This document shows, piece by piece, positions 3,013 to 34,814 of a stretch of 34,814 nt of DNA (positions are counted from its first letter, which is position 1; every line of letters begins with the position of its first letter). The position numbers and the translations under genes were made by a program. The DNA is taken from the IMG/VR virus record IMGVR_UViG_3300001097_001526, positions 1-34,814 of that record; one strand, written 5' to 3'. This DNA is from a virus. Below the pieces are notes generated by a model. The model saw only the letters and a list, made by a program, of their open reading frames with translations, was not told the origin of the DNA and ran no database searches.

Positions 3013-3119
3013 ATTATTATAGTCATTTAAATATATCGTACATATTGCACAAATGTTACACCCAAATCATTTATTGTTTTACAACATTATAAATAAATAT
3101 TCTAAAAAAGGAGCCACCT

Positions 3120-3182
3120 ATGAAAATCAAAGATGGAGTTATTGTACCCATTAAAAGAAATAAATCTCCAGCACAATCTTGA
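3120..3182 (+). CDS. 20-residue leader peptide or relic ORF
   Basis: ATG at 3120 follows a strong AAAAAAGGAG site and opens a 20-codon frame (MKIKDGVIVPIKRNKSPAQS) ending in TGA at 3182. It lies about 100 nt downstream of a perfect promoter and 77 nt before the SSB-like gene, within the 304-nt gap 2956-3259. It could be a translated leader or the truncated start of a lost gene. Nothing else is visible in the gap besides the promoter. Confidence 0.45.
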   Translation: MKIKDGVIVPIKRNKSPAQS

Positions 3183-3259
3183 GTTGAAATGAACATTAGA
3201 CTACACATACGCATATACAACATAATAAATAAAATCAAACTCTAAAGGGGAAATTAAAA

Positions 3260-4240
3260 ATGGAAGATAGTATTAAAAAATTAGTAAATCAAGTTAAATT
3301 GACAGGTGTTATTGCTGAATTAGAAGTAAGACAAGGCACTCAAAAAGCTAATCCTCAAAAAGGTTCAGTTGCAATGCCTTACATTAGCGTAAAAGGTGAA
3401 ATTCAATTTGGCGCTCAAAAATCAATGAGTAGAAGATTTGAAACATATGTCACTAAGTATAAGAAAAATGGGTCGGAAAATGGCTTATTTCAACCAACAT
3501 TAAATTTTATCTCTACAGCTAAAAGTGTTGCTAAAAGTAGTATGGAAGAAGCTACATTTATTTCAATTCAAGGTGAAATAAAAACAAATGACTATGTTAA
3601 TAAAGATAAGATTTTAAAAGAAGGACTTACTATCAAAGCTACGTTCTTTAACACTGTTGAGACCTATGATATTTCTAAAAGCAAATCGGAAAATCTAGCT
3701 ACGTTAGGGGAGAGTAAAATTGACGTCGAAGGATATATTCAAAGTTACATCCCAGAAATTAAAGGTGAAGAAAGCACTGAAACTGGTAGATTGAAATTAA
3801 ATATTTTAACAACGGATTTCTTTGGGAATATAATCCCTATTAAAAATATTATTGTGCCAAAAGAATTTTTTGAGGACTTCCAAAAGATTTACGGCGAGAC
3901 TCAAACAGCACTTTTCTTCTTATCATACCTTGCAAACAAAGCGGAGTCTAAAGTTGCTACGGTTGGTGGTTTAGGGGTACAAAGAACAACTGATGGAAAA
4001 ACTTATACTGAAATGGTTTTAAGTGGTGCAAATCCCGCTGTTGATTCAGATAGTGAAGTTGGTATTAGTGTAGAAGCAATTCAAATAGCATTGAAAGTTA
4101 GAAAAGAAATGTTAGACGAATTAGTTGTCAAGGGATATCAAGGCAAAGCTACAGCAAGTGCCCCTATGGGAATTGGTACTAAAGGTGGCGTTGTAGCCCC
4201 TAATAATGACCTAGATGACGATGATGACTTACCTTTCTAA
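3260..4240 (+). CDS. Putative ssDNA-binding protein with SSB-type acidic tail
   Basis: A 326-residue soluble protein ending in DDDDDLPF, which closely mimics the DDDIPF tip that bacterial SSB proteins use to recruit partner enzymes. The N-terminus (VKLTGVIAELEVRQG) and the middle (SKIDVEGYIQSYIPE) both look like starts of beta-rich, OB-like domains, so a two-domain ssDNA-binding protein is inferred. It directly precedes a Sak4-type ATPase, and phage single-strand annealing systems are commonly encoded next to an SSB. The ATG follows CTAAAGGGGA. The family assignment rests on tail, architecture and neighbour, not on a recognised domain signature. Confidence 0.65.
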   Translation: MEDSIKKLVNQVKLTGVIAELEVRQGTQKANPQKGSVAMPYISVKGEIQFGAQKSMSRRFETYVTKYKKNGSENGLFQPTLNFISTAKSVAKSSMEEATFISIQGEIKTNDYVNKDKILKEGLTIKATFFNTVETYDISKSKSENLATLGESKIDVEGYIQSYIPEIKGEESTETGRLKLNILTTDFFGNIIPIKNIIVPKEFFEDFQKIYGETQTALFFLSYLANKAESKVATVGGLGVQRTTDGKTYTEMVLSGANPAVDSDSEVGISVEAIQIALKVRKEMLDELVVKGYQGKATASAPMGIGTKGGVVAPNNDLDDDDDLPF

Positions 4241-4254
4241 GATAGAAAGGTAAG
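4228..4254. repeat. Hairpin at the 3' end of the SSB-like gene
   Basis: CTTACCTTTCT (4228-4238) and AGAAAGGTAAG (4244-4254) pair perfectly over 11 bp with a 5-nt loop that contains the stop codon. No U-run follows, so mRNA 3'-end protection or processing between the two genes fits better than termination. Confidence 0.55.
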
Positions 4255-4354
4255 AAGTACATAAATAAGTATATAAATATACAAATATATAATCACATAA
4301 GTATGAACAATTAATAAAAATAAAAAATAAAACATATAAAATAAGGAGACATAA

Positions 4355-5997: not shown

Positions 5998-6684
5998 ATG
6001 ACAGACAAAGAATTGGCTAGTTATTCAGATAAACAAGCTATTAGAGAAGTATTAGGAAGTTTTTTACAAGAACCCCAATTAATTAGAGAGTATAAAGTTA
6101 CTAAATCGGATTTCCCCGAAAGATTCCATAAAATAATTTTTGCGGGTATCACAAACCTATATAGAAATGGTATCGAGGAACTTGACGCTGTTGCTATAGA
6201 TGAGTATTTATCACATTATGAGATACAATACGAAGCTTTTAAAAAGAATAATAGAGGAATAGAGTTTATTGATAGTGTAAAAGAAATGTCTTTAACCTCA
6301 AATATTCAGTATTATTTTGATAGGTTGAAAAAGTTTTCCTTATTAAGAAGTTGTGTTAAAAATGGCTTTGACGTTTCATACTACTTTAATCCAAATGAAG
6401 TTGACCCTGTTACAATGGAAAATCAAAGAGATAGGTTAGACAATAGTACTAATAACGAAATAGTTGACTATCTTAAGAAGAATTTTTTAGAAGCTGTTGC
6501 ACCTTTTATTATAGGAGCTGGAAGAGATTCTAAAAAAGCAGGTGTTAGTGGTATGGAACAGAAAGAAAGATGGAAAAATGATACAGCTTGGGGATTAGGT
6601 TATGCAAGTCTTTATATGACAACAGTTTTTCATGGAATTAGAAAAAGAAGATTCAATATTATGTCAGCAGGAACAGGGGTAGGT
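5998..6684 (+). CDS. dnaB: DnaB-type replicative helicase, exon 1
   Basis: First exon (229 codons) of a replicative DNA helicase. It holds the DnaB-like N-terminal helical region (DKQAIREVLGSFLQEPQLI, FPERFHKIIFAGITNLY) and runs into the RecA-fold core, ending at G229 of the Walker A motif AGTGVG. The open frame continues into the intron to 6705, adding a meaningless KLIFNK tail. Splicing GGT (6682-6684) to AAA ACC at 7454 restores GTGVGKT followed by RLSIANLA. The full protein would be 532 residues. The start follows AAAGGAG; the product unwinds the replication fork, working with the primase encoded next. Confidence 0.85.
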
Positions 6685-7453
6685 AAACTCATTTTCAATA
6701 AATAAAGGGGTATTATGTTAGAAAAGACTAAAGAAAAGTATGATAAAGGTATGGTACTATATTTAAAAGGAGAATTAAGTTTAGTACAAATTAGTAAGAA
6801 ATTAACGATACATAGAGGGAAGTTTACAGATTACATGAAACAAAATGGGATTGTAATAGTAAATAAACAAAATGAAGCTAGAAAATTGTCCCTAAAAATT
6901 TATTGAATCATTTTGTAAGAGGTTTTATAGACGGTGATGGTTCAATATTTATAAGTCAAGGAAGACCAAGATTCGCAATATATAGTGGTTCTAAAGGATT
7001 TATCCCAGACTTGGTAAAGGAAATGGGTTGGAAACAACTCATAATAAGAAAAGATAAGCAAGCAGAAGTTTATACTACAGAATATAGTGGGAAACAAGTT
7101 TATTACATACTATCTCCTCTTTACGAAAATTCTAATATATATTTAGAAAGAAAATACACCAAATTTATTGAAATAAAAAAGTGCCGTCTTAAGTAGTAAT
7201 ACATAAGAATATAAGTGTGGTATTAAGCAGGAAAGTCCTCCCTCATAGAAAGGATAACCCGAACCGAAGTTTTGAACTTAAAAGTCAAAACAGGGGCAGA
7301 GCATAGAAATTGAAACTGTATCTTAAGGTACAGAATATAATATTTCCAAGAGCCCACGCCACCCAATCAAGTAATGTTGTGGGTGAAAAGATATGCCGAG
7401 CTAATCTGTAATGGATTAGAAGTAAGGATAAAAAGCCTTACGATAACAAACTG
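6685..7453 (+). ncRNA. Group I intron in the helicase P-loop
   Basis: 769 nt. The 5' exon ends in U (GGU) and the intron ends in G (CUG), the group I rule, and this junction alone restores GKT. P7 is visible as GCATA (7301-7305) pairing with TATGC (7392-7396), inside R- and S-like elements; the S region reads AAAAGATATGCCGAG. The core differs from the other three introns here, so it is a separate lineage. The P1 guide sequence could not be identified. It contains a broken homing endonuclease gene close to the 5' splice site. Confidence 0.8.
6715..7196 (+). pseudogene. Degenerate LAGLIDADG homing endonuclease
   Basis: Two frames make up this relic. 6715-6906 encodes an HTH-containing N-terminus (LSLVQISKKLTIHRGKF) typical of intron-encoded endonucleases. 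6882-7196, in another frame, encodes IVPKNLLNHFVRGFIDGDGS, the usual second LAGLIDADG repeat, and ends with LYENSNIYLERKYTKF, the usual end of such enzymes. The first LAGLIDADG repeat, about 100 residues, is absent. An out-of-frame internal deletion near 6878-6890 is the simplest explanation. The intact start has an AAAGGGG site, so a truncated peptide could still be made. Confidence 0.75.
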
Positions 7454-8365
7454 AAAACCCGATTATCTATAGCTAATTTAGCTACGATATGTGCCCCCGC
7501 AATTTACGATAAGCAATTAGGCAAATGGATTAGAAATCCAAATGGAACCGAAAATAGTGGACTGTATGTAGGCACAGAAATGGAGTTGCTTGAAGAAATA
7601 GACCCTATTCTATGGGCATTTATGGCTGATGTCCCACAAGACCATATTGAATATAATACATATGAGGATGGCGAAGAAGCAAGAGTAGACGAAGCAATTC
7701 GGCTACTATGCGACGAAGGTAACATATGGCTAGAATATGTCCCAGAATACGATTTAATGACGTTAGAGGCAATCATAGAAGAACATAAGCTTAAACATAA
7801 GACATCACACGTTTTCTTCGATTATATCCACACAACAATTGAATTATTGAGCGAATTTGCTGAAAAATCAGTGGTTAAAATGGTTGTTAGAGAAGACCAG
7901 GTATTAGCACAAGTATCAACTACATTAAAACATTTTACAAGGAAATATGATATTTCTCTTGATACAGGGACACAAGTTTCTGGGGATTTTAAAAATGCTG
8001 ATAATAGAGATAGCACGATTATTCGTGGTTCTAAAGCTATTGCGGATAAGGGGGATGGATGTTCTGTTGCTATGCCACCTACCGCTATAGAAATGAAGAA
8101 AATAGACGCAATATTAAGAGCAAGAATGGGAAGTCCAAAACCAAACTTAGTAATTTCCGTTTATAAAAACAGAGGGGGGAAATGGAATGACATTAAAATT
8201 TGGTTATATGTTGATTATGGTACAATGAGAGTCTTTGACCTTTTTGTTACCGACAATGATTATAAATTAGATGGGGAAAAGGTTTTAGGATTAAATAAAA
8301 CATATATTAACATTGAAGAAGAAGGAATTGCGTTTGAAAAACCTACTGAGGTAAAAGTTTACTAG
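7454..8365 (+). CDS. dnaB: DnaB-type replicative helicase, exon 2
   Basis: Second exon (303 codons), beginning AAA ACC (K230, T231 of the P-loop). It carries the remaining RecA-fold core: the HVFFDYIHTT Walker B strand, the VREDQVLAQVSTTLKHF helix, TGTQVSGDF and the IIRGSKAIADKGD loop, followed by NLVISVYKNRGGKW. An ATG at 7580 is only an internal methionine, because the frame is open and conserved upstream to the splice site and no ribosome binding site precedes it. The primase gene starts 16 nt downstream. Confidence 0.85.
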   Translation, partial: KTRLSIANLATICAPAIYDKQLGKWIRNPNGTENSGLYVGTEMELLEEIDPILWAFMADVPQDHIEYNTYEDGEEARVDEAIRLLCDEGNIWLEYVPEYDLMTLEAIIEEHKLKHKTSHVFFDYIHTTIELLSEFAEKSVVKMVVREDQVLAQVSTTLKHFTRKYDISLDTGTQVSGDFKNADNRDSTIIRGSKAIADKGDGCSVAMPPTAIEMKKIDAILRARMGSPKPNLVISVYKNRGGKWNDIKIWLYVDYGTMRVFDLFVTDNDYKLDGEKVLGLNKTYINIEEEGIAFEKPTEVKVY

Positions 8366-8380
8366 AAGGAGCGTGATTTC

Positions 8381-9568
8381 ATGTTAAATAAAGACGATGT
8401 GCTAGAGAGATTTGAAACACAACATGTCTTGAAATTAATGGAAGAGGAAGGGGAGTATCCCTTTAAAACCGAGAGTGAAAAAGGTCAAATATGGTTTAAA
8501 ACAATTTGTCATACTGGTGACCTAACTAAGAAAAGCAATAAATTATGCTATTTTGAGGAAAGCAAAACATTCTTTTGCTATACCGAATGTGGTTCAATGA
8601 GTATATTTAACTTCGTTATGCAAGTTAGAGGCGTAGAGTTCTCAAGTGCTGTTGAGTTTATTGGGGAGTTAGTTGGGATGAATCAGAGGGTTGGTCTTGG
8701 TATTACTAGTAATAGAAACAACCACAAAGAAATAAATTCAGAAATGAATATAATTAATAAATATACTAAAATGAGAAATAAAAAACCTAGCCCCCCTTTA
8801 ACTGTTCTTAAAGGAATAAAAAATCCAAACATATTAGATTATTTTGAGAAAGACGTATTCTATGAGGGATGGTTAAACGAAGGTATTGGATTTAAAACTA
8901 TGATTGACTTCAATATTTTATGGTATGAGTCTCAAAAAGCGGTTATAATTCCACATTTTAATCAAAAGGGTAAAATAGTTGGTATTAGAAGAAGAAGCTT
9001 ATTGGAAGAGAACGTAAAAAGTAAATATATGCCACTTATCCTAGAAGGTCAAATGTATGAGCACCCTTTAAATTCAAATTTATACGGTCTGTATGAACAT
9101 ATACAAACAATTAAAAGATTAAGAAAGGTTGTTATTGTAGAGTCCGAGAAAAGTGTATTGTTGGCACATGAATATTATGGCGAAAATACTTTTGTTATAG
9201 CAACATGTGGTTTCAATATATCAAAGTGGCACATAAGGACGTTACTTTCTTTAGGGGTTGAAGAAATTATTATAGGGTTTGACAAAGATTTCGACATAAC
9301 TTCATTTGAAGACGCGGACGCTAAGAGTGCCGTTTTTAAACAGTTTCTTTCATATAAAAAAAGAATAATCTCATTAGCACAGAAATTAACCCCTTATTTT
9401 CGTACTTTTGTACTTTGGGATGAATATAAAAAGTTAGACGTTAAAGACTCCCCTTTTGATAAAGGACAAGAAGTCCTAGAGTTTTTAATGAAAAACAAAG
9501 TAGAAATGACAACAGAGATTGAAGGGTATGAAGAACCTAAAAAACAAACAAATAAAAGGAGAATATAA
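8381..9568 (+). CDS. DnaG-like DNA primase (zinc finger plus Toprim)
   Basis: A 395-residue primase. The N-terminus has a CHC2-like zinc-binding region with C43, H44, C56, C66 and C70 (FFCYTECGSM) followed by SIFNFVMQVRGVEF. The Toprim fold is visible as VVIVESEKS (about residue 250), an ATCGF loop, and IIIGFDKDFD (about 295-302) with the metal-binding acidic residues. It makes RNA primers at the fork and probably works with the helicase immediately upstream. It is shorter than cellular DnaG (about 600 residues) because the C-terminal helicase-binding domain is absent or reduced. The start follows AGAAGGAG. Confidence 0.85.
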   Translation: MLNKDDVLERFETQHVLKLMEEEGEYPFKTESEKGQIWFKTICHTGDLTKKSNKLCYFEESKTFFCYTECGSMSIFNFVMQVRGVEFSSAVEFIGELVGMNQRVGLGITSNRNNHKEINSEMNIINKYTKMRNKKPSPPLTVLKGIKNPNILDYFEKDVFYEGWLNEGIGFKTMIDFNILWYESQKAVIIPHFNQKGKIVGIRRRSLLEENVKSKYMPLILEGQMYEHPLNSNLYGLYEHIQTIKRLRKVVIVESEKSVLLAHEYYGENTFVIATCGFNISKWHIRTLLSLGVEEIIIGFDKDFDITSFEDADAKSAVFKQFLSYKKRIISLAQKLTPYFRTFVLWDEYKKLDVKDSPFDKGQEVLEFLMKNKVEMTTEIEGYEEPKKQTNKRRI

Positions 9569-11162: not shown

Positions 11163-11524
11163 TTGAAAAAATATATATATAAAATTACTAATAAGATTAA
11201 TGGAAAGTCATATGTAGTTCAAACAAGTAATCTAAAAAAAAGATTCCTAGACCATAGAAGAATGGCAAAAAATTCTTCGGCTATTTAAAAAAATTGTCAA
11301 AAACTCTCGTGAATTCATTCATGAGATGAATTGGCTTGAGCGGGAAGCACGTGACTTTAGTCATGTGTAGTTCACAGAGAGCAATAGTAAAGTATGGAAT
11401 AGAGAGTTTTATCTTTGAAATGATAGATTATGGGGAAAACTATAATGAACTAGAAAAAAATATATTAAAAAATAATTATATAACAACTAATCCTGTAACG
11501 ACTATTCCCTTAATAGGGAAGTAG
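11163..11524 (+). pseudogene. Disrupted GIY-YIG homing endonuclease
   Basis: 11163-11288 encodes YIYKITNKINGKSYVVQTSNLKKRF with the family's H and R context, ending in a premature TAA. About 90 nt later the frame resumes with AIVKYGIESFIFEMIDYGENYNELEKN, the expected C-terminal part of the nuclease domain. The second motif is altered (YVV rather than YVG or YIG). A TTG start would have an AAGAGG site. Insertion of a hairpin-rich segment plus point changes has inactivated the gene. Confidence 0.75.
11290..11385. repeat. Two-hairpin insert inside the GIY-YIG relic
   Basis: This stretch does not align with either half of the nuclease. It contains TCTCGTGAAT (11305-11314) pairing with ATTCATGAGA (11317-11326), and CACGTGAC (11348-11355) pairing with GTCATGTG (11360-11367). 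Each stem has one G-U pair. Boundaries are estimated from where nuclease similarity stops and resumes. Confidence 0.45.
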
Positions 11525-11659: not shown

Positions 11660-12181
11660 CACGCTGGAGCTTTTGGTATAGAGATTTGCGATAAAAACAT
11701 TGACAAAGTTAGAAATTTATGTAATAATAAGATAGGCAAGGAAGATTTAGTTACTGTTCATGAAGTAGATTATGAAATTAAAGCTTCAAACCTAAAAAAC
11801 TCAGCAATAAGCGAAGTTGCAGAGGCATATGCGATTTGGGGAAATCAAGTTGACGAGCCTAATTTTGTAATTACAGATGTTGACGTTGACGCAAAAGATA
11901 TTAAAGGTTATGGGGAGCACAATGGTTTTATTAAATTTAAATTTAATGACGTTGACTTTATTAAAAATTATTGCTCAAAAGGGGATATAGATGAATTAAC
12001 GCAATCAGATAGAAACATCTTAGGGGAAAATAAAAAGAAACTTAAGATTACCATTATAGGACATTTTACATTTAATATGTACGAAGGTAATAAATATCCT
12101 CAAGTTAAAATATCTTCGTTCTATAGTGAGGAAAGACTAGAAAAAACAGAGGATGAATTATCTTTTGAAGATGTTTTTTAG
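11660..12181 (+). CDS. recJ: RecJ-like DHH exonuclease, exon 2
   Basis: Second exon (173 codons), beginning HAGAFGIEICDKNIDKV, which completes the DHHA1-type substrate-binding motif after splicing. The remaining residues (ITDVDVDAKDIKGYGEHNGFIKF, KLKITIIGHFTFN) form the C-terminal OB-like region expected in RecJ proteins. An ATG at 11657 overlaps the splice junction and has no ribosome binding site, so independent translation is unlikely. DnaE begins 26 nt downstream. Confidence 0.83.
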   Translation, partial: HAGAFGIEICDKNIDKVRNLCNNKIGKEDLVTVHEVDYEIKASNLKNSAISEVAEAYAIWGNQVDEPNFVITDVDVDAKDIKGYGEHNGFIKFKFNDVDFIKNYCSKGDIDELTQSDRNILGENKKKLKITIIGHFTFNMYEGNKYPQVKISSFYSEERLEKTEDELSFEDVF

Positions 12182-12207: not shown

Positions 12208-13673
12208 ATGCCTAGAGTTAATAAAGAATATATGAGCAATCATAATCATTGCGAAGACTCTAACTTCAAAATGAAAGATTCTGTAATTAGAGCCGAAGAT
12301 ATTGTAAACCACGCAATTAAAATGGGATATAGTGGCGTTAGTATCACAGACCATGAAACATTATCATCACATATTAGAATTTCACAGAGATATCACTACT
12401 TAATGGATTTGAAAAAGAAATATGACGACCCAGATATTGATAATACGTCGGAAGATGAAAAAGAAATGCAAAAAGAAATGTCACTGCTCGAAATCATGCC
12501 TAGCAACTTTAAATTGGGGCTAGGCAATGAAATCTACTTGATTGATGATATAGTAGATGTAACCGAAAACTATGTGAGTGGTGTAACTAAATACTTCCAT
12601 TTTGTATTGCTTCCTAAAAATGCAAAAGGTCACGAACAATTAAGACAAATATCATCTTCCGCTTGGGGTAATTGGTTTAGACAAAATGGGGTTGAAAGAG
12701 TGCCTACTGTGAAAAGTGACCTAGTAAGTATTATAGGTGAGAATAAAGGAAATTTAATTTCTACTAGTGCTTGTCTTGGGTCGGAATTTAGTAAATTAAT
12801 TCTTGATTATGCATATGGATATGAAGGTTCAAAGGTCAAACTACATAGATTTATAACGTGGTGCATAAATACTTTTGGGAAAGAAAACTTTTTTATTGAG
12901 TTACAACCAACTTTTGAAATGCCCCAAGAGGATTTTTTAACTAGTCACCCACAAATAATAGCTAATGTTAATGCTGTTAAAATTGCTAAAGCATATGGGT
13001 TAAGCACTACAGTTACTACAGACTCTCATTATTTGAAAAAAGAACATAGGAAAATTGTGCATGAAGCATATCTACATTCAGACGAAGATAATTCAAACAA
13101 TAGAGAACTTGGTGACTTTTATGCAACAACTTATATGATGAGTAAGAATGAATTGTATGATTTATTGTGTAACCATTTAGAAGAAGAAGACGTTATAAAT
13201 GCTTTTAAAGGAACAATGTTAATACATGATATGATTGAAGATTATGACCTTCATCAAGACGTTATTGTGCCTAGAGATAAGAATATTCCAGAATTTGACG
13301 TTAAAGGTTTATTTGAGGATTGGTATGAAGAATGTCCTTATATAAAAAAATTTGCTGAATCAGAGGACGTCCAAGAGAGATATTTTTTGTACAAGTGTGA
13401 AGAGGGGTTTTTGAATAAAAGACAAGAGTTTAATGACGTGAACATAAAAAGAATTAATATAGAAATGGAAGAAATATGGGAAGCTAGTAATAGAATTAAC
13501 ATGAGAATTGCCCCTTATTATATATTAGTTGAAGTTTTAGTTAATAAAATAATGTGGAATATATCTTATGTTGGGGTAGCACGAGGTAGTGTGACTGGAT
13601 TTTTTGTCGCATATTTGATGGAAATAACGCAAATGAATCCAATAAAATATGACTTACCACATTGGAGACACCT
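12208..13673 (+). CDS. dnaE: DNA polymerase III alpha (DnaE, PHP-containing), exon 1
   Basis: First exon (488 codons plus 2 nt) of a C-family replicative polymerase. The PHP domain is at the N-terminus: NHNHCEDSNF, VSITDHETLSSH, ATTY-linked acidic segments and TTDSHYLKKEHRK. The polymerase core begins with ISYVGVARGSVTGFFVAYLMEI, the conserved GRGS-like nucleotide-binding loop, then NPIKYDLPHWRHL. The frame stops at 13686 in intron sequence. With the other two exons the enzyme would have 1355 residues. The start follows AAGAAAGGA. It copies the phage chromosome; the PHP domain may proofread. Confidence 0.87.
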
Positions 13674-14021
13674 TAAAGTAGCTTAAATTTTAAACTTTTA
13701 CGCTCTCATGAGAGATATCAAAGTTTAAAGTCATTAGAAAAATACAATAGGGGAATATTATAGTAATATAATATGTTAAGTTTTGTGAACACGTTGGTTA
13801 CGTGGTGTTTAGTTAATTCTATGCTAACGGTGAAAGTCTAAGTCCGAAAAGATATGATAATACCGTGCCAAGCAAAAATAAAAAATATTTTTGAAGGTGT
13901 AACGACTATCCCAAAGGGGAGTAAGATGGATAATAACCACCATTTGAAGCGCAAAACACCCAATCATTAAGTTGAGGGTGAAGATATAGTCTAGCCTTTA
14001 TGGAAACATAAAGTATAAGCG
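13674..14021 (+). ncRNA. ORF-less group I intron, first in dnaE
   Basis: About 348 nt. Core elements are clear: TATGCTAACGG, ACCGTGCCAAGC, AACGACTATCCC (R), GAAGATATAGTCTAG (S) and a P9 hairpin CTTTATGGAAACATAAAG. There is no endonuclease gene. Splice sites are chosen from the protein: exon 1 ends CACCT and the next exon starts AAGC, giving WRHL-SKLRPELPD. Alternatives are a 5' site after CACCTT with a 3' site before 14020, or a 3' site before 14025. No fully convincing P1 was found, so the edges are uncertain by a few nucleotides. Confidence 0.75.
13689..13729. repeat. Nested palindrome near the 5' end of the first dnaE intron
   Basis: TTTAAACTTT (13689-13698) pairs with AAAGTTTAAA (13720-13729), and inside it lies the perfect 12-nt palindrome CTCTCATGAGAG (13703-13714). 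The other introns here have no such structure at this place, so it may be an insertion that enlarged the P1 loop. Confidence 0.6.
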
Positions 14022-14046
14022 AAGCAAATTAAGACCAGAGTTGCCT
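14022..14046 (+). CDS. dnaE: DnaE micro-exon (about 25 nt)
   Basis: This segment encodes (L)SKLRPELP between two group I introns. It supplies residues missing between WRHL of exon 1 and DIDLD of exon 3. The resulting spacing, 13 residues between YDL and PD, equals that in E. coli DnaE and in other DnaE proteins with a PELPDIDID-type sequence. Its 3' boundary is secured by the P1 of the second intron (exon TGCCT with GGGCA). The 5' boundary could be 14020, 14022 or 14025. Confidence 0.75.
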
Positions 14047-15067
14047 GAACAATATTGGGCATTGAGTGTGAACCTCGCTAGAGGGTGTGTATAGATAATC
14101 ATATCTATATGCTATCGGTATCAGTTGAATAAGACTTCTATACATGCCTTACAAGGGGATTATAGATATAAAAAAGACGAAGCCACTGACTAAGAAAGCC
14201 TAAAGTCCTATTTTAATAGGATAGTTGGTAATACCGAGCCAAGTTACAGTACAATATATCTCGATATAAAGGGGATATAAAATGAGCGAAAGATTAGCGA
14301 TAATTTATAAAATAACAAATATTAAAAATAATTACATATATGTTGGTTCTACAACAAAAACACTAGAAGAAAGATTTTGTGCACACCTTCATAAGTCAAA
14401 GACAGATTTTGATAAATATCTTCTATATAGTGACCTATTGGAACAAGACGAAAAAGATTTTATAATGGTTGCTTTAGATACTAGTTTGATTAAGCATCGT
14501 TTTATAATTGAGGCATATTGGACTAAAAAATTACTAGAAGAGGGAAATGCTATGTATAATATGAAACAAGGTAATACGCACACGCAAAATACAAAGCAAA
14601 GACTATCTGAATCAAGACAAGCAAGTGGGTTTGATTATTCTTCTAATGAGTTTAAAGATAAAATGAGATTAGCAACCTCTGGAATAAATAATGGTATGTA
14701 TGATAAGAAAGACGAAAATGCCGTAAATGGTAGGATAGTTGTTGCATTGGACGATAATGGTAATGTATTTAAAACATTTAATTCAGTTAAAATGGCAACT
14801 CAATTCTTAAATACAAAAGGACATACCGCATTAGGTAAAGCTTGTAGAAACAACGAGAAATATAAAGGATACTATTGGAAAAAAGAATGGGTTAATCGCT
14901 GATATATTGTACGATAAAAGGTTTAACGACTATTCCGCAAGGAAGTAGATGTAGATTTAAGCACTACATCGAAGCGCATTCACTATTTATTAAAGATAAA
15001 TAGAAGATATAGTCTAATCCCACTATTAAATTAGTGTTAAAGTATCTCGAAAGAGAGGGTATAAATG
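14047..15067 (+). ncRNA. Group I intron, second in dnaE, with endonuclease gene
   Basis: 1021 nt. P1 pairs exon UGCCU with GGGCA (14057-14061), and a P2-like hairpin CCTCGCTAGAGG follows. Core elements are TATGCTATCGG, ATACCGAGCCAAG, AACGACTATTCCG (R) and GAAGATATAGTCTAA (S). P9 is CACTATTAAATTAGTG, with CTCGAAAGAG after it. The intron ends in G15067. Splicing gives CCT|GAT, reading P-D-I-D-L-D. A complete GIY-YIG endonuclease gene occupies a peripheral loop. Confidence 0.88.
14282..14902 (+). CDS. GIY-YIG homing endonuclease, intact
   Basis: A 206-residue intron-encoded nuclease. The catalytic domain shows IIYKITNIKNNYIYVGSTTKTLEERFCAHL (described in parts: IYKITN, then YIYVGST, then LEERF with the catalytic arginine, then the histidine). 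A linker region with NTKQRLSESR follows, and a C-terminal NUMOD-like DNA-binding module reads VVALDDNGNVF, MATQFLN and YKGYYWKK. It would cut intron-free dnaE alleles to spread the intron. The start has its own AAAGGGGA site. It is the only intact endonuclease of the four introns. Confidence 0.88.
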   Translation: MSERLAIIYKITNIKNNYIYVGSTTKTLEERFCAHLHKSKTDFDKYLLYSDLLEQDEKDFIMVALDTSLIKHRFIIEAYWTKKLLEEGNAMYNMKQGNTHTQNTKQRLSESRQASGFDYSSNEFKDKMRLATSGINNGMYDKKDENAVNGRIVVALDDNGNVFKTFNSVKMATQFLNTKGHTALGKACRNNEKYKGYYWKKEWVNR

Positions 15068-17644
15068 GATATAGATTTAGATTCAGAGTCGTCAAAAAGG
15101 CAACAAATATTCCAAGCAATGAAAGATTATTATGGGGTACTTAATGTTTTAAATATTCTTACTTTAAGAACAGAAGGGACTAAAAGTGCTTGTTTAACGG
15201 TTTGTAGAGGTTTTAATATAGACACTGATACTTCACAAGCAATAGCGGATATGATTCCCTTTGAACGTGGGGCAAATTGGTCTTTAAATGATTGCTTTAA
15301 AGGAAATGAGGAAAAGGGAAGAGGTAAACTTACTGAGTTTATAGACGCAATAGCAAAACATGAGGGTTTGAAAGAGGCAATGTTTTTGATAGAAGGTTTG
15401 GTTTGTGGAAGGTCAATTCATGCTTCTGGTGTATATGTTTTCGATAATGGATACTTACTTCAAAATAGTAGAATGAAAGCCCCTAATGGTACTGATATTA
15501 CGTGTTGGACTATGAATGATTCGGATTATTGTGGTGGGTTGAAAATAGACGTTCTTACAATCCAAGCTTTAGATAAAATACATATTACAATGGATTTACT
15601 AGCTGAACATGGATTGATAGAACAACAACCAACAATGAAAGAAACTTATAATAAATATATCCATCCAGACGTTTTAGAATATGAAAATAAAGAAATGTGG
15701 GAAATGTTGGGTGAGAATAATTTAATAGACGCTTTCCAGTTCGATACTGATGTTGGTAGTGACGCGGTAAGAAAGGTTAAACCTACAAATATTTTAGACT
15801 TAGCTGTAGCAAATAGTCTAATGAGGCTTATGGCTGATTTAGGAAATGAAAGCCCCATTGACACCTACGTTAAGTTTAAAAACAATATTACTCTTTGGTA
15901 TAATGAAATGAGAGATTTTGGGCTTAACGAAGAAGACGTTAAAGTAGTTGAAAAACATTTATTAAAATTATATGGGGTTGCTGATACTCAAGAAGTTGTA
16001 ATGCAAATGGTAATGGACGAGAAAATTAGTGGTTTTGATATTCCTTTAGCGAATAAAGTTAGAAAAATTATAGCAAAAAAGAAAGCCTCTGAAATAGATA
16101 GCATGAGAGAATTCTTTTATAAAAAAGCTAAAGAAATAAACCCAACTTCGAAATTAGCCGAATATATATGGGGGGTACAAATTAAACGTCAACTTGGCTA
16201 TAGTTTTAGTCTCAATCACACAATGCCATATTCAGCAATATGTGTACAAGAAATGAATTTAGCACATAGATATAATAAGATATTTTGGAATACAGCTTGT
16301 TTAACGGTAAACGCTGGAGCCGATGAAGATAATGACAATAATAAAACGACTCAATACGGGAAAATCGCCAAAGCTATTAGTGAAATTAGAGGTAAAGGAC
16401 AATTAATGACATTACCAGATATCAATACAGCTAAATTTGGATTCACACCAAATCTTAACACGCAAGAAATAATTTTTGGACTTAAAGGAATTTGTGGTAT
16501 CGGGGACGACACCGCTCAAGCAATAATTAGTAATAGACCATATACAAGTTTAGACGATTTTATGAATAAAATGAACATATATAAAAACGAAGAAACAGAA
16601 AATAAGTTTGGGAATAGTGCTGTTATAACCTTAATAAAAGGTGGTGCTTTTGATAATTTAGAAGGTAAATCTAGGGTTGAAATCATGAAAGATTTTATTT
16701 TGAAAATATCAGACCCCTCTAAAAAATTGACAGCAATTCATATTCCTCACCTAGCTAAATTAAATGTATTTACTAAACAGCAAAAAGCATATGAAGTAAG
16801 ACTTTACAAATTCAAAAAATACGCTTGTTCAAAAGAGTTTTTTGTTAAGAAAACAGGTAAAAGCGATAGTAGTAGTTATTATAGACTTGAAACACAATTT
16901 TCACTTCCATTCTTCTATCAACATTTCGAAACAAATATGTTAGAAGACAAAGATTACTATTATGACGATATTGGAAATGTAGTTGTAAAAAAGGGAAGTT
17001 TAGATAGAGAATATGATAAGCTTATGAAACCTTTTAATGAGTTGATTTTAAGCAATCCTAAGAATTTAGATTTAATTAATAGAGTTAAATTTGATGAGTT
17101 ATGGATGAAACATGCGGTGGGAACCTCTTCTAAATGGGAAATGGACGCATTAAGTTTTTACTATGGCGTTCATGAATTATCACATGTTAATAAAGAAGAG
17201 TATTTAATCTCAAACTTCTTTGATTTACTAGAAGTGCCAACAGGTACACAAACATATTTTTGGAGAGGAAAAGAAAAAGTTAGGTTTACTCTTTGTAGGA
17301 TTTGTGGTACAGTATTAGATACCGATAAGAATAAAAACACAGTAACATTATTGACACCAGAAGGTGTTGTAATGATTAAATACTATAAAGGGAATTTTGG
17401 TTTTTACAATAAAAGAATTTCTCATGTGTTTGAAGGTAGTACAACAAGTAAAGTTCTTGAAGAAAAATGGTTTCGTAGAGGAAATAAGTTGTTAATAACA
17501 GGTTATCGTAGAGGGGAAAGATTCTTTCCTAAAAATTATATTGATTCTGTTTACAAACATAGTACACAACTCATCAAATCAATTGACGAAAATGGTGATT
17601 TGAAATTACAGTCAGAAAGGATAAACGTAGATGAGCTACAATAG
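15068..17644 (+). CDS. dnaE: DNA polymerase III alpha (DnaE), exon 3
   Basis: Third exon (858 codons), beginning DIDLDSESSKR. D498 and D500 of the spliced protein are the catalytic metal ligands of the PDIDxD motif. Further polymerase signatures are SIHASGVYVF, CGGLKIDVLTIQALDKI (third catalytic aspartate region), FQFDTDVGS and GYSFSLNHTMPYS. A helix-hairpin-helix follows at GLKGICGIGDDTAQAI, and an OB-like C-terminus at VRFTLCRICGTVLD. The ATG at 15065 overlaps the splice site and is not the translation start. The end overlaps the RecD-like gene by 14 nt. Confidence 0.87.
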   Translation, partial: DIDLDSESSKRQQIFQAMKDYYGVLNVLNILTLRTEGTKSACLTVCRGFNIDTDTSQAIADMIPFERGANWSLNDCFKGNEEKGRGKLTEFIDAIAKHEGLKEAMFLIEGLVCGRSIHASGVYVFDNGYLLQNSRMKAPNGTDITCWTMNDSDYCGGLKIDVLTIQALDKIHITMDLLAEHGLIEQQPTMKETYNKYIHPDVLEYENKEMWEMLGENNLIDAFQFDTDVGSDAVRKVKPTNILDLAVANSLMRLMADLGNESPIDTYVKFKNNITLWYNEMRDFGLNEEDVKVVEKHLLKLYGVADTQEVVMQMVMDEKISGFDIPLANKVRKIIAKKKASEIDSMREFFYKKAKEINPTSKLAEYIWGVQIKRQLGYSFSLNHTMPYSAICVQEMNLAHRYNKIFWNTACLTVNAGADEDNDNNKTTQYGKIAKAISEIRGKGQLMTLPDINTAKFGFTPNLNTQEIIFGLKGICGIGDDTAQAIISNRPYTSLDDFMNKMNIYKNEETENKFGNSAVITLIKGGAFDNLEGKSRVEIMKDFILKISDPSKKLTAIHIPHLAKLNVFTKQQKAYEVRLYKFKKYACSKEFFVKKTGKSDSSSYYRLETQFSLPFFYQHFETNMLEDKDYYYDDIGNVVVKKGSLDREYDKLMKPFNELILSNPKNLDLINRVKFDELWMKHAVGTSSKWEMDALSFYYGVHELSHVNKEEYLISNFFDLLEVPTGTQTYFWRGKEKVRFTLCRICGTVLDTDKNKNTVTLLTPEGVVMIKYYKGNFGFYNKRISHVFEGSTTSKVLEEKWFRRGNKLLITGYRRGERFFPKNYIDSVYKHSTQLIKSIDENGDLKLQSERINVDELQ

Positions 17645-21468: not shown

Positions 21469-21672
21469 AAATTGAGCATTCTTCGAAAAACATATAAAAT
21501 AGTATAAATCTGCATAAAATTGTAATAATATGCAAAATAGCAATAAACAGTCAAAAAACACCAAAAAATGTTCTAATAAAATGAAAATTTTAATAATTTT
21601 CAATTTTTTGAAAAAAACGAAAAATTTTCCCTATGCCTATTGGGTTTTAAGGGTACGAAATTTGGGTTTTTC

Positions 21673-21696
21673 CTAATAAAATGAACCTTTTATTAG
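21673..21696. repeat. Recurring hairpin, copy 2
   Basis: CTAATAAAA and TTTTATTAG pair perfectly over 9 bp with a 6-nt loop. As at position 1, a GAGAAAGGGG ribosome binding site and an ATG follow, here at 21729. Confidence 0.7.
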
Positions 21697-21728
21697 ATTG
21701 GTAAAATAACGAGAAAGGGGGGAAAAAA

Positions 21729-23999: not shown

Positions 24000-26900
24000 A
24001 TGCAAATAAAAAAAAGAAACGGAACTATAGTGGATTATGACGGAAGTAAAATAGTTTTAGCTATAAAAATGGCTTTAATTGACGCAAAAGTAGAAGATAC
24101 CGAAATGGTTGAAGATATAATAGATAATATTGAAAATGATATCTTAGAAGAAATGGAGGATAGTGACTATATTTTTAATGTTGAAGATATAAGCGACAGA
24201 GTTGAACAATTATTAATGAAATATGGGCTAGGTAATATAGCTAAAAAATACATATTATTTAGAAATAAACAAGCTGAACGTAGAGAATTAGAAGCAAATG
24301 AAACTATCAAGTATAATTTACTTTCAAAAGATTTTCTAAATAAATATAAACATATTAAACCCCCAATGACGGAACTAGGTAATTTAGTATATTACAGAAC
24401 ATACTCAAGATGGATATCAGAAAAAAAGAGAAGAGAATATTGGTGGGAAACTTGTGCAAGAGCGATTGATTTTAATTGTAGTTTACAACCAAGAACCACT
24501 CAAAAAGAAGCGGAAAGCCTCTTTGATAATATGTTTAATTTAAGACAGTTCTTATCTGGAAGAACTTTATGGAGTGGGGGAACCGCCACGTCTTATACTA
24601 ATCCGATTTCACAGTTCAACTGTGCATTTGCGGTAATTGATAATTTCAATATTTACAAAGATTTTTGCTATTTATTAATGCTTGGGGTTGGGGTGGGTTT
24701 TTCTGTTGAAAGAGAATATGTAAATCAACTTCCCAAAATCAGTGGAAGTATTAAATTAAACCAACTTTATTACACACCAATTTTAAATAAAAGCAAAAGA
24801 AAAGAAAACACTGAGTTCAATGTTGTAGCTGACGTATTAGAAATTATTGTTGGGGACTCAAAAATGGGTTGGGCTAATGCTATTGATTATTTTTTAAAAG
24901 CGTTTTATGCAATCGACTTCAAAAATATAAATCATATTATGATTAATTATAATAATGTCAGACCTAAAGGGGAGCCATTAAAAACTTTCGGGGGTACCGC
25001 AAGTGGACATGAAGCCTTAAAAACTATTATTGATAAAACATATGCAATATTAATTAAGAATAATGAAGGCTATAAAAAATTAAAGCCTATAGAAGCAATG
25101 GATATTGCGAATATCATAGCGGAAGGAATCGTTGTAGGTGGTGTTAGAAGAAGTGCTGAAATGTGCTTGTTTGACCATGACGATAAAGAAGTTATGGAAG
25201 CAAAGTCAAATCTTTATATTCAAGAAAATGGTGAATGGAAGTCAAACGGTGAAATTTTACATAGAATGATGAGTAATAATTCAGTTTCTTATTATACTAA
25301 ACCTTCATTAGAAGACCTAAAACTTAGATTTGAAACAATTAAATTAAGTGCGGAAGGTAATTTCTACAATCTTGCTAGTGCTAGACTTAGGAAACGTAAT
25401 GTTAAAGGTTGTAATCCTTCTATGCCAAAAGACGTATTAGTTCAAACAATAGAAGGTATATTCCATATAAACGAACTAGAAGGTAAGGAATTCTACGTCA
25501 AAACTTTAAATGGGGATATTGCAAAAGCCGAATGTTGGTTATCTAGTGACAATGCGGAAGTATTCGATTTAGACTTTAAAGGTAACAGACATACATATGC
25601 GACGTCAAAACATAAATTTCCAGTTATACAAAATGGGAAAATAGTAAGAAAACAAGTTTCAGAATTACAAAAGGGCGACAAAATTCCACTAAATAGAAAT
25701 GAATTACAAGGATACTCTAAAAAACTTTCTTATCAAGACGGACTGTTTGCTGGTATAATGCTTGGGGACGGGTCAATTACGCAAAGAAGTGACGATAATA
25801 GATATGTTGCCTCATTGACAATTTCCGACTTAGACTTAGAGCTGAAAAGCTTTGTTGATAAACATTATTATTCTATGACGGGACTAACATTAACATGGAA
25901 TAGAAGAAATAAAGAAGATAAGTCTCAAGAAACAAACTTTGGAAGACAAGATTTTGTTTATGATTATTTAATAAAAATTTTAGGATTGCCATTATCTAAA
26001 GAAGGAAAGAGACTACCAATAAAAATATGGACAGAAGGTGATAATTACTGTTTAGGTTTTATTGACGGACTGTTCTCAACAGACGGTAATATAGACGTAG
26101 ATAAAAATAGAAAAAGTATAAGAGTGCAATTAACGACAAGCCAACAATTATTAGCGGAAGACGTTCAAAAATTATTGAGTTTCTATGGTATTTCAGCTAA
26201 TATAAAAAGCTGTGAACGAAAAATTACATTTCCAAATGGAAAAGACTACGAGAAATTATACACTATATATGGGGTATATCTATCGAAGTCTCAATCAAAA
26301 AGATTTAATAATATTTTCACATTAACGGCAAAAAGAAAACAAGAATACATAGACGATTTTATGTCTGAAAATGATATAGTAGATAGAAACTACATAGTTT
26401 TAAATACTATAACAAAGAGAAGTGAAGAGCCAGTATGGGATATTACAGTACTTCATGAACAGCACGTATTTCCTTCTCAACATTGCTACACAGGAAATTG
26501 TGGGGAAATTCTTCTAGACTCTGAACAATTTTGTAATTTAACGACAGTAAATGTTATGGCTTTTGTTATAAATGGCAAATTAGACAAAGAACTTTTATAT
26601 GAGGCTCAAAAATTATCCGCAAGAGCTGGATATAGGATAGCTACAATGGAACTAGAGTTACCAGAATGGAATTATATGCAATCTAGAGATAGATTAATTG
26701 GTTGTTCTTTTACTGGTTGGTTTGATATGGTAAATGCAACAGATATGTCACTAGAAGAACAGACAGAGGTTTTAAAAGAAATGAGGAAAGTAGCAAATGA
26801 CGAAGCTAATCAATATGCGGACGATTTAGGTTTAAATAGACCAGAACTAGTAACTTCAATAAAACCAGAAGGAACATTAAGCCAATTACCAACGGTTTCA

Positions 26901-33223: not shown

Positions 33224-33271
33224 TTTGACCCAAAGCGTCCAAAACACTAAAAGCACCTAAAATAGACAAAA

Positions 33272-33316
33272 AAAATTAGCCATAATACAAAATATCGTAT
33301 TATGGCTAATTTTCTA
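33272..33316. terminator. Bidirectional rho-independent terminator
   Basis: A perfect 17-bp stem, AAAATTAGCCATAATAC (33272-33288) with GTATTATGGCTAATTTT (33297-33313), and an 8-nt loop. The A-run before it and T-run after it work in both directions. It lies between the rightward thyX and the leftward integrase. Confidence 0.88.
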
Positions 33317-33572
33317 TAAAAACAAAAAAGTAAGGTCGTGATTTCTCAATAGATATTGAGATATTTTTCTGATTTTTTCACTATTTTCCTAATAAAATAT
33401 GGATTTTATTAAGTGGGCGTTTTTAGCTGTATTTTTACTTTTTCATGTATTCTTAACACATATAGCATATTTTTAGCATATTTTTAGCATGTCAAGTATA
33501 CTTTTTATATACTCAACATGCTTTTATTATGCCATTTAATTAATTTAAAACACTAGACTTGAATAAATAGTA
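33317..33572. other. Noncoding region with candidate attP next to the integrase
   Basis: Between the terminator and the integrase stop there is no gene. The region holds another recurring hairpin (TAATAAAAT 33390-33398 with ATTTTATTA 33403-33411), direct repeats and the inverted repeat described separately as a candidate attachment site. Confidence 0.6.
33464..33522. repeat. Candidate attP: arm repeats plus core inverted repeat
   Basis: AGCATGTCAAGTATA (33486-33500) and TATACTCAACATGCT (33508-33522) are inverted with 13 of 15 matches around a 7-bp spacer, CTTTTTA. That is the architecture of a tyrosine-recombinase core site. Directly upstream, AGCATATTTTT is repeated twice with an 11-bp period and runs into the core's own AGCAT, like arm sites. 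It lies 51 bp past the integrase stop codon. Without an attB or a junction this remains a candidate. Confidence 0.5.
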
Positions 33573-34610
33573 CTAACTTGCGGAATACTTAGCATAGGCA
33601 CTTCTTAAAGCTAAATCACTGTATTTTGCATATATACAAGTAGTATTAATATCCTCATGTCCTAGTAATATTTGTAATTCACCTAAATTTCCACCTCTTT
33701 CTAGGTAAAAACATGAAAATGTATACCGAAAAGCGTGGGGAAATATGTTAAGTTCAATCCTATTCCCAATATTATTCAAAACGTCTTCTATACAACGTGC
33801 CCCAATAAATCTGTAAGGACTTCTCTCCCCTATAAATAAATATTCACTATTTCCTTTTCTAGTTTTTAAATACTTTTTTATGTAGTACATCGCTTTTTTA
33901 TTAACATATATTATACGTTCTTTATCCCCTTTCCCCAATACTTTTATAGCACCATTAGAAATATCAGAAATCTTTAAACCAACAACTTCACCAACTCTGA
34001 CACCTGTAGCTAATAAAAACTCCACTACGGCTCTTTCTCTATGGGTTACACAATTATCTCTGATTAATTCTAACTCTTCAATAGTAAGACTTCTTCTTAG
34101 ATTATTAGGTTCTTTTATAGGTTTTAAGTTCTTAGCTGGGTTCTTAGTAATATACTCTTCGTCTTCAAGCCAAACGAAAAACGTTTTTAATTTCCAAACC
34201 ATACTATTAAGAGTTGAAGCTATTACCTCTTTCTTTTTTGTGTCTATATAACACCTCAAATCATAGGTATTAATATCACTTACAGGTTTGTATATAAAAC
34301 TAGCAAAATCAACTAAAAAATACTTATAGTTTTTTAAAGTTCTTATTGATAATCCTTCTAACTTCTTACATGCGATATAATACTTAATCTTCTCTGGCAA
34401 ATCTGTAGTTAACGTTAAGGAGGTTTGTTTTAGAGAAATGTTATAATCATTTAAAGTACTTTCTAAAATGCCTAACATAAGCTTATAACCTAATCCACTG
34501 TCATTATTTAGACTTTTTCCCTCACTGTCTCTAATATCCCCATTGCCCACATTAATTTCATTGATTTTCCCCATAATAGTACTCATAATCTCATTATTAC
34601 AATTACTCAT
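33573..34610 (-). CDS. int: Tyrosine integrase
   Basis: A 345-residue tyrosine recombinase and the only clear minus-strand gene. A core-binding domain (about residues 68-150, YKYFLVDFASFIYKPV) precedes the catalytic domain. Catalytic residues are Arg in TGVRVGEVVGLK, a lysine in the beta-hairpin LGKGDKERII, HAFR with His and Arg, GHEDI with His, and Tyr in CIYAKYS. An N-terminal extension of about 60 residues may bind arm sites. It would integrate and excise the phage genome. The start follows AAGGAG. It runs against all other genes and has its own promoter. Confidence 0.92.
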   Translation of the reverse strand: MSNCNNEIMSTIMGKINEINVGNGDIRDSEGKSLNNDSGLGYKLMLGILESTLNDYNISLKQTSLTLTTDLPEKIKYYIACKKLEGLSIRTLKNYKYFLVDFASFIYKPVSDINTYDLRCYIDTKKKEVIASTLNSMVWKLKTFFVWLEDEEYITKNPAKNLKPIKEPNNLRRSLTIEELELIRDNCVTHRERAVVEFLLATGVRVGEVVGLKISDISNGAIKVLGKGDKERIIYVNKKAMYYIKKYLKTRKGNSEYLFIGERSPYRFIGARCIEDVLNNIGNRIELNIFPHAFRYTFSCFYLERGGNLGELQILLGHEDINTTCIYAKYSDLALRSAYAKYSAS

Positions 34611-34662: not shown

Positions 34663-34691
34663 AGTATACTACGATATGCAAAATTTGTCAA
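34663..34691 (-). promoter_or_regulatory. Integrase promoter
   Basis: On the minus strand, TTGACA (34691-34686), a 17-bp spacer and TATACT (34668-34663), followed by the inverted repeat and the int start at 34610. Confidence 0.85.
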
Positions 34692-34733
34692 TAGTTTTAT
34701 CGAAAGTTCTATCGTTTTCTGTAAATAATTTTA

Positions 34734-34773
34734 TAAAATCAACATAAATAATTTTCTATTTATGTCGATTTTA
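34734..34773. terminator. Long hairpin upstream of the integrase promoter
   Basis: TAAAATCAACATAAATA (34734-34750) and TATTTATGTCGATTTTA (34757-34773) pair at 16 of 17 positions around a 6-nt loop. A T-rich stretch follows on the plus strand. It may end transcription entering from the right or act as a regulatory site. The last 40 bases of the window show nothing else. Confidence 0.5.
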
Positions 34774-34814
34774 TTTCTCACTAGTGCGCAATATAGTCCT
34801 ATTGTGAATCTAAT

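Follow-up and report, generated by a model that had tools for sequence, protein, structure and literature searches.

In SPbeta (NC_001884), the replication and nucleotide genes run towards sprB, the gene of the recombination directionality factor (RDF), behind which follow attP and then sprA on the opposite strand: the end reads yotM, sprB (+), attP and sprA (−), with 24 bp between attP and the 3′ end of sprA. The same arrangement is described in an excerpt of PMC8270828. For the Tyroviruses (Thrax1 and others), the pertinent sections of PMC9703825 place a putative attP past gp50, in the structural module, where an inverted repeat with perfect arms (11-6-11) and a short core stands directly downstream of a Xer-like gene; phased flanks are not mentioned in those sections. 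The att region of phage 186 carries sites of the RDF Apl, five direct repeats at 10–11 bp spacing beside the core, together with the use of IHF, and tandem repeats one helical turn apart, which are bound by Xis-type factors, are given as a signature of excisionase/RDF sites (extract of PMC7498355).

The window treated here (the whole stretch of DNA that was analysed, 34,814 bases, which is a whole virus record, yet an incomplete genome) ends with thyX (+), a candidate recombination site and the recombinase gene int (−). It shares with SPbeta the end of a replication module on the plus strand, an att-like site just past the 3′ end of the integrase gene and an integrase gene on the minus strand; the two differ in that SprA, as far as the excerpted description goes, is a large serine integrase with an att of other design, whereas int encodes a Xer-type tyrosine recombinase. 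Compared with the site of the Tyroviruses, the arms are imperfect and of different size (15-7-15), the position is that of the SPbeta att and phased flanks are present; attP function is putative in both. The likeness to phage 186 lies in the direct repeats beside the core, present here as two complete units and, in addition, the AGCAT in either arm. With XerA, XerS-difSL and XerH-difH, the protein family and a near-palindromic site are held in common, and the site is linked to the recombinase gene as for XerS. The site is read here, with a probability of roughly 0.6, as the attP core of an SPbeta-like temperate phage, on whose arms a Xer-type integrase would pair and whose phased units would bind an RDF or extra recombinase subunits.

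Phage context

To the left of the window, the virus runs on for 11.7 kb in another contig, and the part of the genome upstream of int lies outside the record. No contig running past the right end was returned by searches of a kind that may leave out very near records, and no match to int was found in the same-virus contigs L009–L011. The polymerase of the window is 45–48% identical to that of SPbeta-group phages (20 among the matches listed) over 99–100% of its length, and 13 ORFs match SPbeta ORFs, one of them as an antisense frame, hence 12; the matches of the replication genes keep the SPbeta order yorF–yorL. Judged by these matches, the window represents the region of an SPbeta-like phage that serves replication and nucleotide metabolism.

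In the relative G004 (49% identity to the window in the polymerase), ORFs read from their sequence as ThyA- and DHFR-like come first; some 1.9 kb further on stands a large serine recombinase, likewise on the + strand, and beyond it lie opposite-strand ORFs that read as lysis-like. No large serine recombinase (PF07508) was found in the window. Three SPbeta-like phages (SPbeta, that of the window and G004) thus have an integrase-type gene near the same junction, two of them in the same orientation, and this is the main reason to prefer attP; the recombinase of G004, on the other strand from int, is a counterpoint to that reading.

Anatomy of the site

The core consists of a left arm AGCATGTCAAGTATA (33486–33500, +), a 7-bp spacer CTTTTTA (33501–33507, no strand), which would serve as overlap and crossover region, and a right arm TATACTCAACATGCT (33508–33522, −), which reads AGCATGTTGAGTATA on the minus strand; the arms pair at 13 of 15 positions. 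Two phased direct repeats AGCATATTTTT (+) adjoin the left arm, the first at 33464–33474, a candidate unit for an excisionase or accessory protein or for an extra recombinase subunit, and the second at 33475–33485, part of an outer symmetry with 33523–33532. The left arm itself opens with AGCAT in the same 11-bp register as both copies. On the right side, the minus strand carries the outer unit GGCATAATAAA (33523–33533), one helical turn beyond the arm and mirroring the left AGCAT units, and then AGCATGTTGAG, so that the arrangement is the mirror image of that on the left. The ladder is therefore two-sided, with GCATA also at 33528–33532 (minus), one turn outside the right arm, and for this reason the inverted symmetry extends to 25-nt arms (19/25 paired). 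GCAT units number three on the left and two on the right, and all three matches to GCATA-N6-GCAT in the window fall inside the site. The stop codon of int lies 50 bp from the right arm. When 33486–33522 is read as minus-strand RNA, both DNA mismatches become G-U pairs and the stem is fully paired, perhaps by coincidence.

The first-pass annotation, which had described a 15-bp imperfect inverted repeat with a 7-bp spacer and two direct repeats in register at 33464–33522, proved exact, and it had rightly set the site just past the 3′ end of int; the outer unit on the right was not part of it.

Tests against chance and copy number

The inverted repeat and the period-11 run were simulated separately, so that the chance figures apply to each alone. 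An inverted repeat of at least 13/15 was obtained in 14 of 2000 dinucleotide shuffles of the 350-bp intergenic stretch with a spacer of 7 and in 45 of 2000 with spacers of 5–9, and arms of 25 nt with at least 19 positions paired (spacer 5–9) in 14 of 2000; the hairpin at 33262–33325 likewise reaches 19 paired positions in 25-nt arms. Over the whole window, one placement was counted at spacer 7 against a mean of 0.16 in 300 whole-window shuffles, and six at spacers 5–9 against a mean of 0.76. These six correspond to four places: the att-like site, the hairpin at 33274, the palindrome at 34735 and one at 21575, and the site at 33486–33522 is not the best palindrome of the window. A period-11 run of at least 16 matches occurred in none of 3000 local and none of 300 whole-window shuffles, and the ladder is the sole run of at least 16 matches in the window at periods 8–13. 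The inverted repeat and the phased repeats each exceed chance, and the core has the form of a tyrosine-recombinase attP, with inverted arms around an overlap of 6–8 bp. The tandem repeats one helical turn apart beside it have the form of an RDF (Xis-type) array as outlined in the extract of PMC7498355, and by this analogy the left ladder fits the Xis-type pattern well.

Full half-sites are present only at the site; among the best eight per source, the next copies in the window score 13/15 and 12/15, and an 11.8-kb stretch that overlaps the window and extends to its left offers nothing above 12/15. No second full copy of the site was found in 46.5 kb of the virus (window plus 11.7 kb leftward).

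The recombinase gene

The gene int (33573–34610, −) encodes a protein of 345 aa assigned to the Xer-type tyrosine recombinases from Pfam, NCBIfam, PHROGs, catalytic residues and a structural model. The residues R205, K227, H292, R295, H318 and Y327 are all present, with roles taken from the Cre/XerH/lambda Int table in an excerpt of PMC10516654, and are common to the relative in a Terrisporobacter phage. The Pfam family Phage_integrase is matched at E 4.3e-28, a SAM-like core-binding domain is also present and the PHROGs label is 'integrase'. XerA, XerC and XerD head the NCBIfam matches, each below its cut-off; XerA (NF040815) scores 193.5 against a cut-off of 220 bits, so that int stands outside the curated XerA family and differs from XerA in this respect. 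Among solved structures, archaeal Xer and XerA are the closest relatives. By its sequence, the product of int is catalytically complete as a tyrosine recombinase, and of the Xer type, which supports the first-pass naming of the gene as int.

No Arm-DNA-bind family was found in the product (Pfam, E up to 0.001), and the N-terminal arm-binding domain of an integrase acting on a lambda-type attP is accordingly lacking at this threshold. The model (six sequences; mean pLDDT 77.7, pTM 0.49) shows both domains that were to be expected, with an N-terminus that is weakly predicted, of low confidence and mainly two helices; Foldseek put XerA at the top and also matched lambda Int, XerH and Cre. Because of the pTM of 0.49, the model adds little beyond the sequence. 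A strong sequence match to a promoter, TTGACA-17-TATACT (11/12), lies upstream at 34663–34691 (−), and a 17-bp perfect hairpin with a T tract on the minus strand at 33270–33315, separate from the site, is the likely int terminator.

Related recombinases are 25–42% identical to int. No site of this sequence was found beside them at 22 loci (18 + 4; L015 and L017 are near-identical, and L003, L004 and L016 are without flank or broken), the flank scan having been confined to the stronger relatives, with weaker ones such as L051–L053, L061, L062 and L064 left out; since a common site is not expected at this identity, its lack is weak evidence either way. The scan used gave a palindrome at 10 of the 18 and 3 of the 4 loci, several terminator-like, and none at 8 of 18 and 1 of 4, so that finding a palindrome next to a gene of this kind is uninformative on its own. 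The L004 relative, from a viral record, matches in two pieces in different frames and probably represents a disrupted gene.

The closest named relative (41%), from Terrisporobacter phage TPELB_ph1, stands in the tail-lysis region of a phage with a second annotated integrase, and the family is therefore not always an integration enzyme. Three of the five fetched plasmid relatives adjoin restriction specificity (S) genes, a neighbourhood from which other functions are suggested for this branch of the family. Of the SPbeta proteins, YomM, YopP and MrpR were considered as close homologues and rejected (YomM 28% over 158 aa, YopP and MrpR no better than chance). The palindromes past yomM (best 12/13, loop 8) were read as terminators, none being like the site.

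Searches for partner sites and host

Two core patterns gave 0 matches each in viral_contigs. With the 121-bp site as query, 37 phage records matched at E up to 10, the best 10 at E 0.1 and in unrelated genes, and 66 plasmid records, the best 10 at E 4; int together with the site had no plasmid match at E 1e-5. In a sample of 398 genomes from a single phylum, matches at E up to 0.05 were met in 85 and were scattered along the query; six of them, in six genomes, were exact over 18–19 bases, and those in G517, G610 and G526, which touch or span the spacer, were potential attB candidates. Twelve genome loci were examined: the five best and seven with an exact or near-exact stretch touching the spacer. 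Scored over the whole 37-base core, the seven match at 21–25 of 37 bases and pair at 3–8 of 15 arm positions, and neither a tRNA, an integrase relative nor a common gene was evident within the 2.2–3.0 kb taken at each; a tRNA or integrase relative was likewise lacking at the five best loci. The genome matches are read as chance. No attB, attL or attR was thus found in the partial data searched (viral, phage, plasmid and 398 genomes of one phylum). The polymerase, too, was without a match in the 398 genomes at E up to 1e-150, a search uncontrolled by a known positive, and on this ground the host may well lie outside the sample.

Rfam gave nothing at gathering scores. Against two sequences of the 28-bp XerCD dif, the best window matches were 19/28 and 18/28 and lay about 9 kb from the site, so that no dif of this kind was evident.

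Interpretation as attP

On the preferred reading, the Xer-type integrase would bind the two inverted 15-bp arms as a pair, cut at the edges of the 7-bp spacer and exchange strands with a host attB whose core resembles it. Beyond the arms, the AGCAT units in 11-bp phase would most likely bind a small RDF or extra recombinase subunits, by which the DNA would be bent and the direction set. For these repeats, an excisionase or extra recombinase subunits are more likely than a lambda-type arm domain: binding of the ladder by a separate arm domain of the integrase is unsupported because no such domain was found, and extra subunits are possible because AGCAT is common to arms and ladder.

The attP proposal of the first-pass annotation is thus retained on the strength of anatomy, position and the SPbeta-like arrangement, and loses lambda-type arm binding. 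Its suggestion that one protein binds core and arms was weakened, if taken in the lambda sense, by the Pfam result, by the Xer-like family, by the low-confidence N-terminus of the model and by the one-turn spacing of the direct repeats, which is typical of excisionase/RDF sites; the identity of AGCAT in arms and ladder, on which it had been built, is confirmed and leaves room for extra recombinase subunits at the ladder.

Taken as a whole, the site is a plausible candidate attP of a known sort, whose particular traits are the two-sided ladder and the exchange of a tyrosine for a serine integrase at the SPbeta att position. No report of such an exchange was met in a limited literature search, and reports may exist. 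A fuller version, in which a Xer-type module replaced the serine integrase at an SPbeta-like att and extra recombinase monomers on the two-sided AGCAT half-units, with no excisionase, set the direction without a lambda-type arm domain, is quite unlikely. If the attP reading is right, the locus provides a Xer-type phage integrase with a recombination site that is short and can be tested, and serine and tyrosine integrase types would have been swapped at one fixed place in SPbeta-like phages; compact pairs of recombinase and site are useful as tools. The general view is unchanged by the site alone.

Alternative explanations

A dif- or lox-like resolution site, at which the Xer-type recombinase would act on two copies in dimers or concatemers of a phage genome kept as a plasmid, with no integration, is unlikely, and is suggested by the Xer-like recombinase, by the nearly symmetric core and by the ~84 kb plasmids of B. 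subtilis (including that of strain NCIB 3610, presumably pBS32), which carry a polymerase 41% identical to that of the window. XerS is genetically linked to its own dif site in streptococci and lactococci (PMC2731167, in part), and a plasmid lifestyle has been suggested for the Tyroviruses, clustered with SPbeta-like phages at a predicted subfamily level, with their palindrome past a Xer-like gene (same sections of PMC9703825). The position of the cassette, which is that of attP and integrase in SPbeta, argues against it, as does a PHROGs scan of 20 of the 40 translated window ORFs, in which none was labelled as a gene for partition or plasmid maintenance. Phased outer repeats, moreover, are not known as part of a minimal dif or lox site.

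The attP reading also has to contend with a better palindrome upstream of the int promoter (34733–34774, no strand; 18-6-18, 17/18 paired), an operator or a rival recombination site. That this is the real recombination site, with a regulator bound at 33486, is very unlikely: its pairing and its 6-bp spacer speak for it, but it is without a flanking period-11 ladder, its arms are almost pure A/T, it is placed at the other end of int from where SPbeta has its attP, and it stands some 40 bp before the int −35 box, a fitting place for an operator.

A little less probable again is an operator function of the site at 33486–33522 itself, with a repressor, possibly a catalytically dead recombinase like MrpR of SPbeta, on the palindrome and phased units. 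MrpR is described as a recombinase-fold repressor that binds a repeated element (excerpt of PMC10516654), the phased repeats of phage 186 are also regulatory sites (extract of PMC7498355) and weak promoter-like matches overlap the site. Against it, promoter-like matches in the region are no commoner than in shuffles (10 against a mean of 10.6), the site is located beyond the ends of two genes, and it lacks the further full copies in the 46.5 kb that a dispersed operator would have. An RNA hairpin acting as terminator or stabiliser at the 3′ end of the int transcript is the least credible, since the stable minus-strand fold with its two G-U pairs (−26.9 kcal/mol, z −8.9) has no T tract behind it, draws no call from the terminator scan, competes with the T-tract hairpin already present at 33270–33315 and leaves the direct repeats unexplained by RNA folding.

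Other features of the virus

A short hairpin of the form CTAATAAAAT(4–6 nt)ATTTTATTAG, or half of it, is repeated between genes and sometimes stands just before a ribosome-binding site. Copies were located in the window at 3–28, 21573–21700 (two), 29811 and 33389–33412, and in the same-virus contig to the left (L036) near 8749 and at 11346–11384 and 11696–11727; the hairpin is unlike the two annotated SPbeta palindromes. As the window starts in this hairpin and ends in ATCTAAT, the assembly may have broken in it, and a copy may lie on each side of the int cassette.

At 5998–8365, the DnaB-like helicase gene is split in two, with small ORFs between that resemble a homing endonuclease, which by sequence is a probable intron or intein. 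The DNA polymerase III alpha at 12208–17644 is split by a GIY-YIG endonuclease gene, and in G004 the two polymerase halves likewise enclose an endonuclease, 50% identical to that of the window. To the left of the window, L036 carries at 3032–4294 an ORF resembling an RNA-guided nuclease of the IscB type. The ribonucleotide reductase ORF at 24000–27434 matches its family in two stretches, and residues 476–741, which match helicase/terminase families, might form an intein-like interruption.
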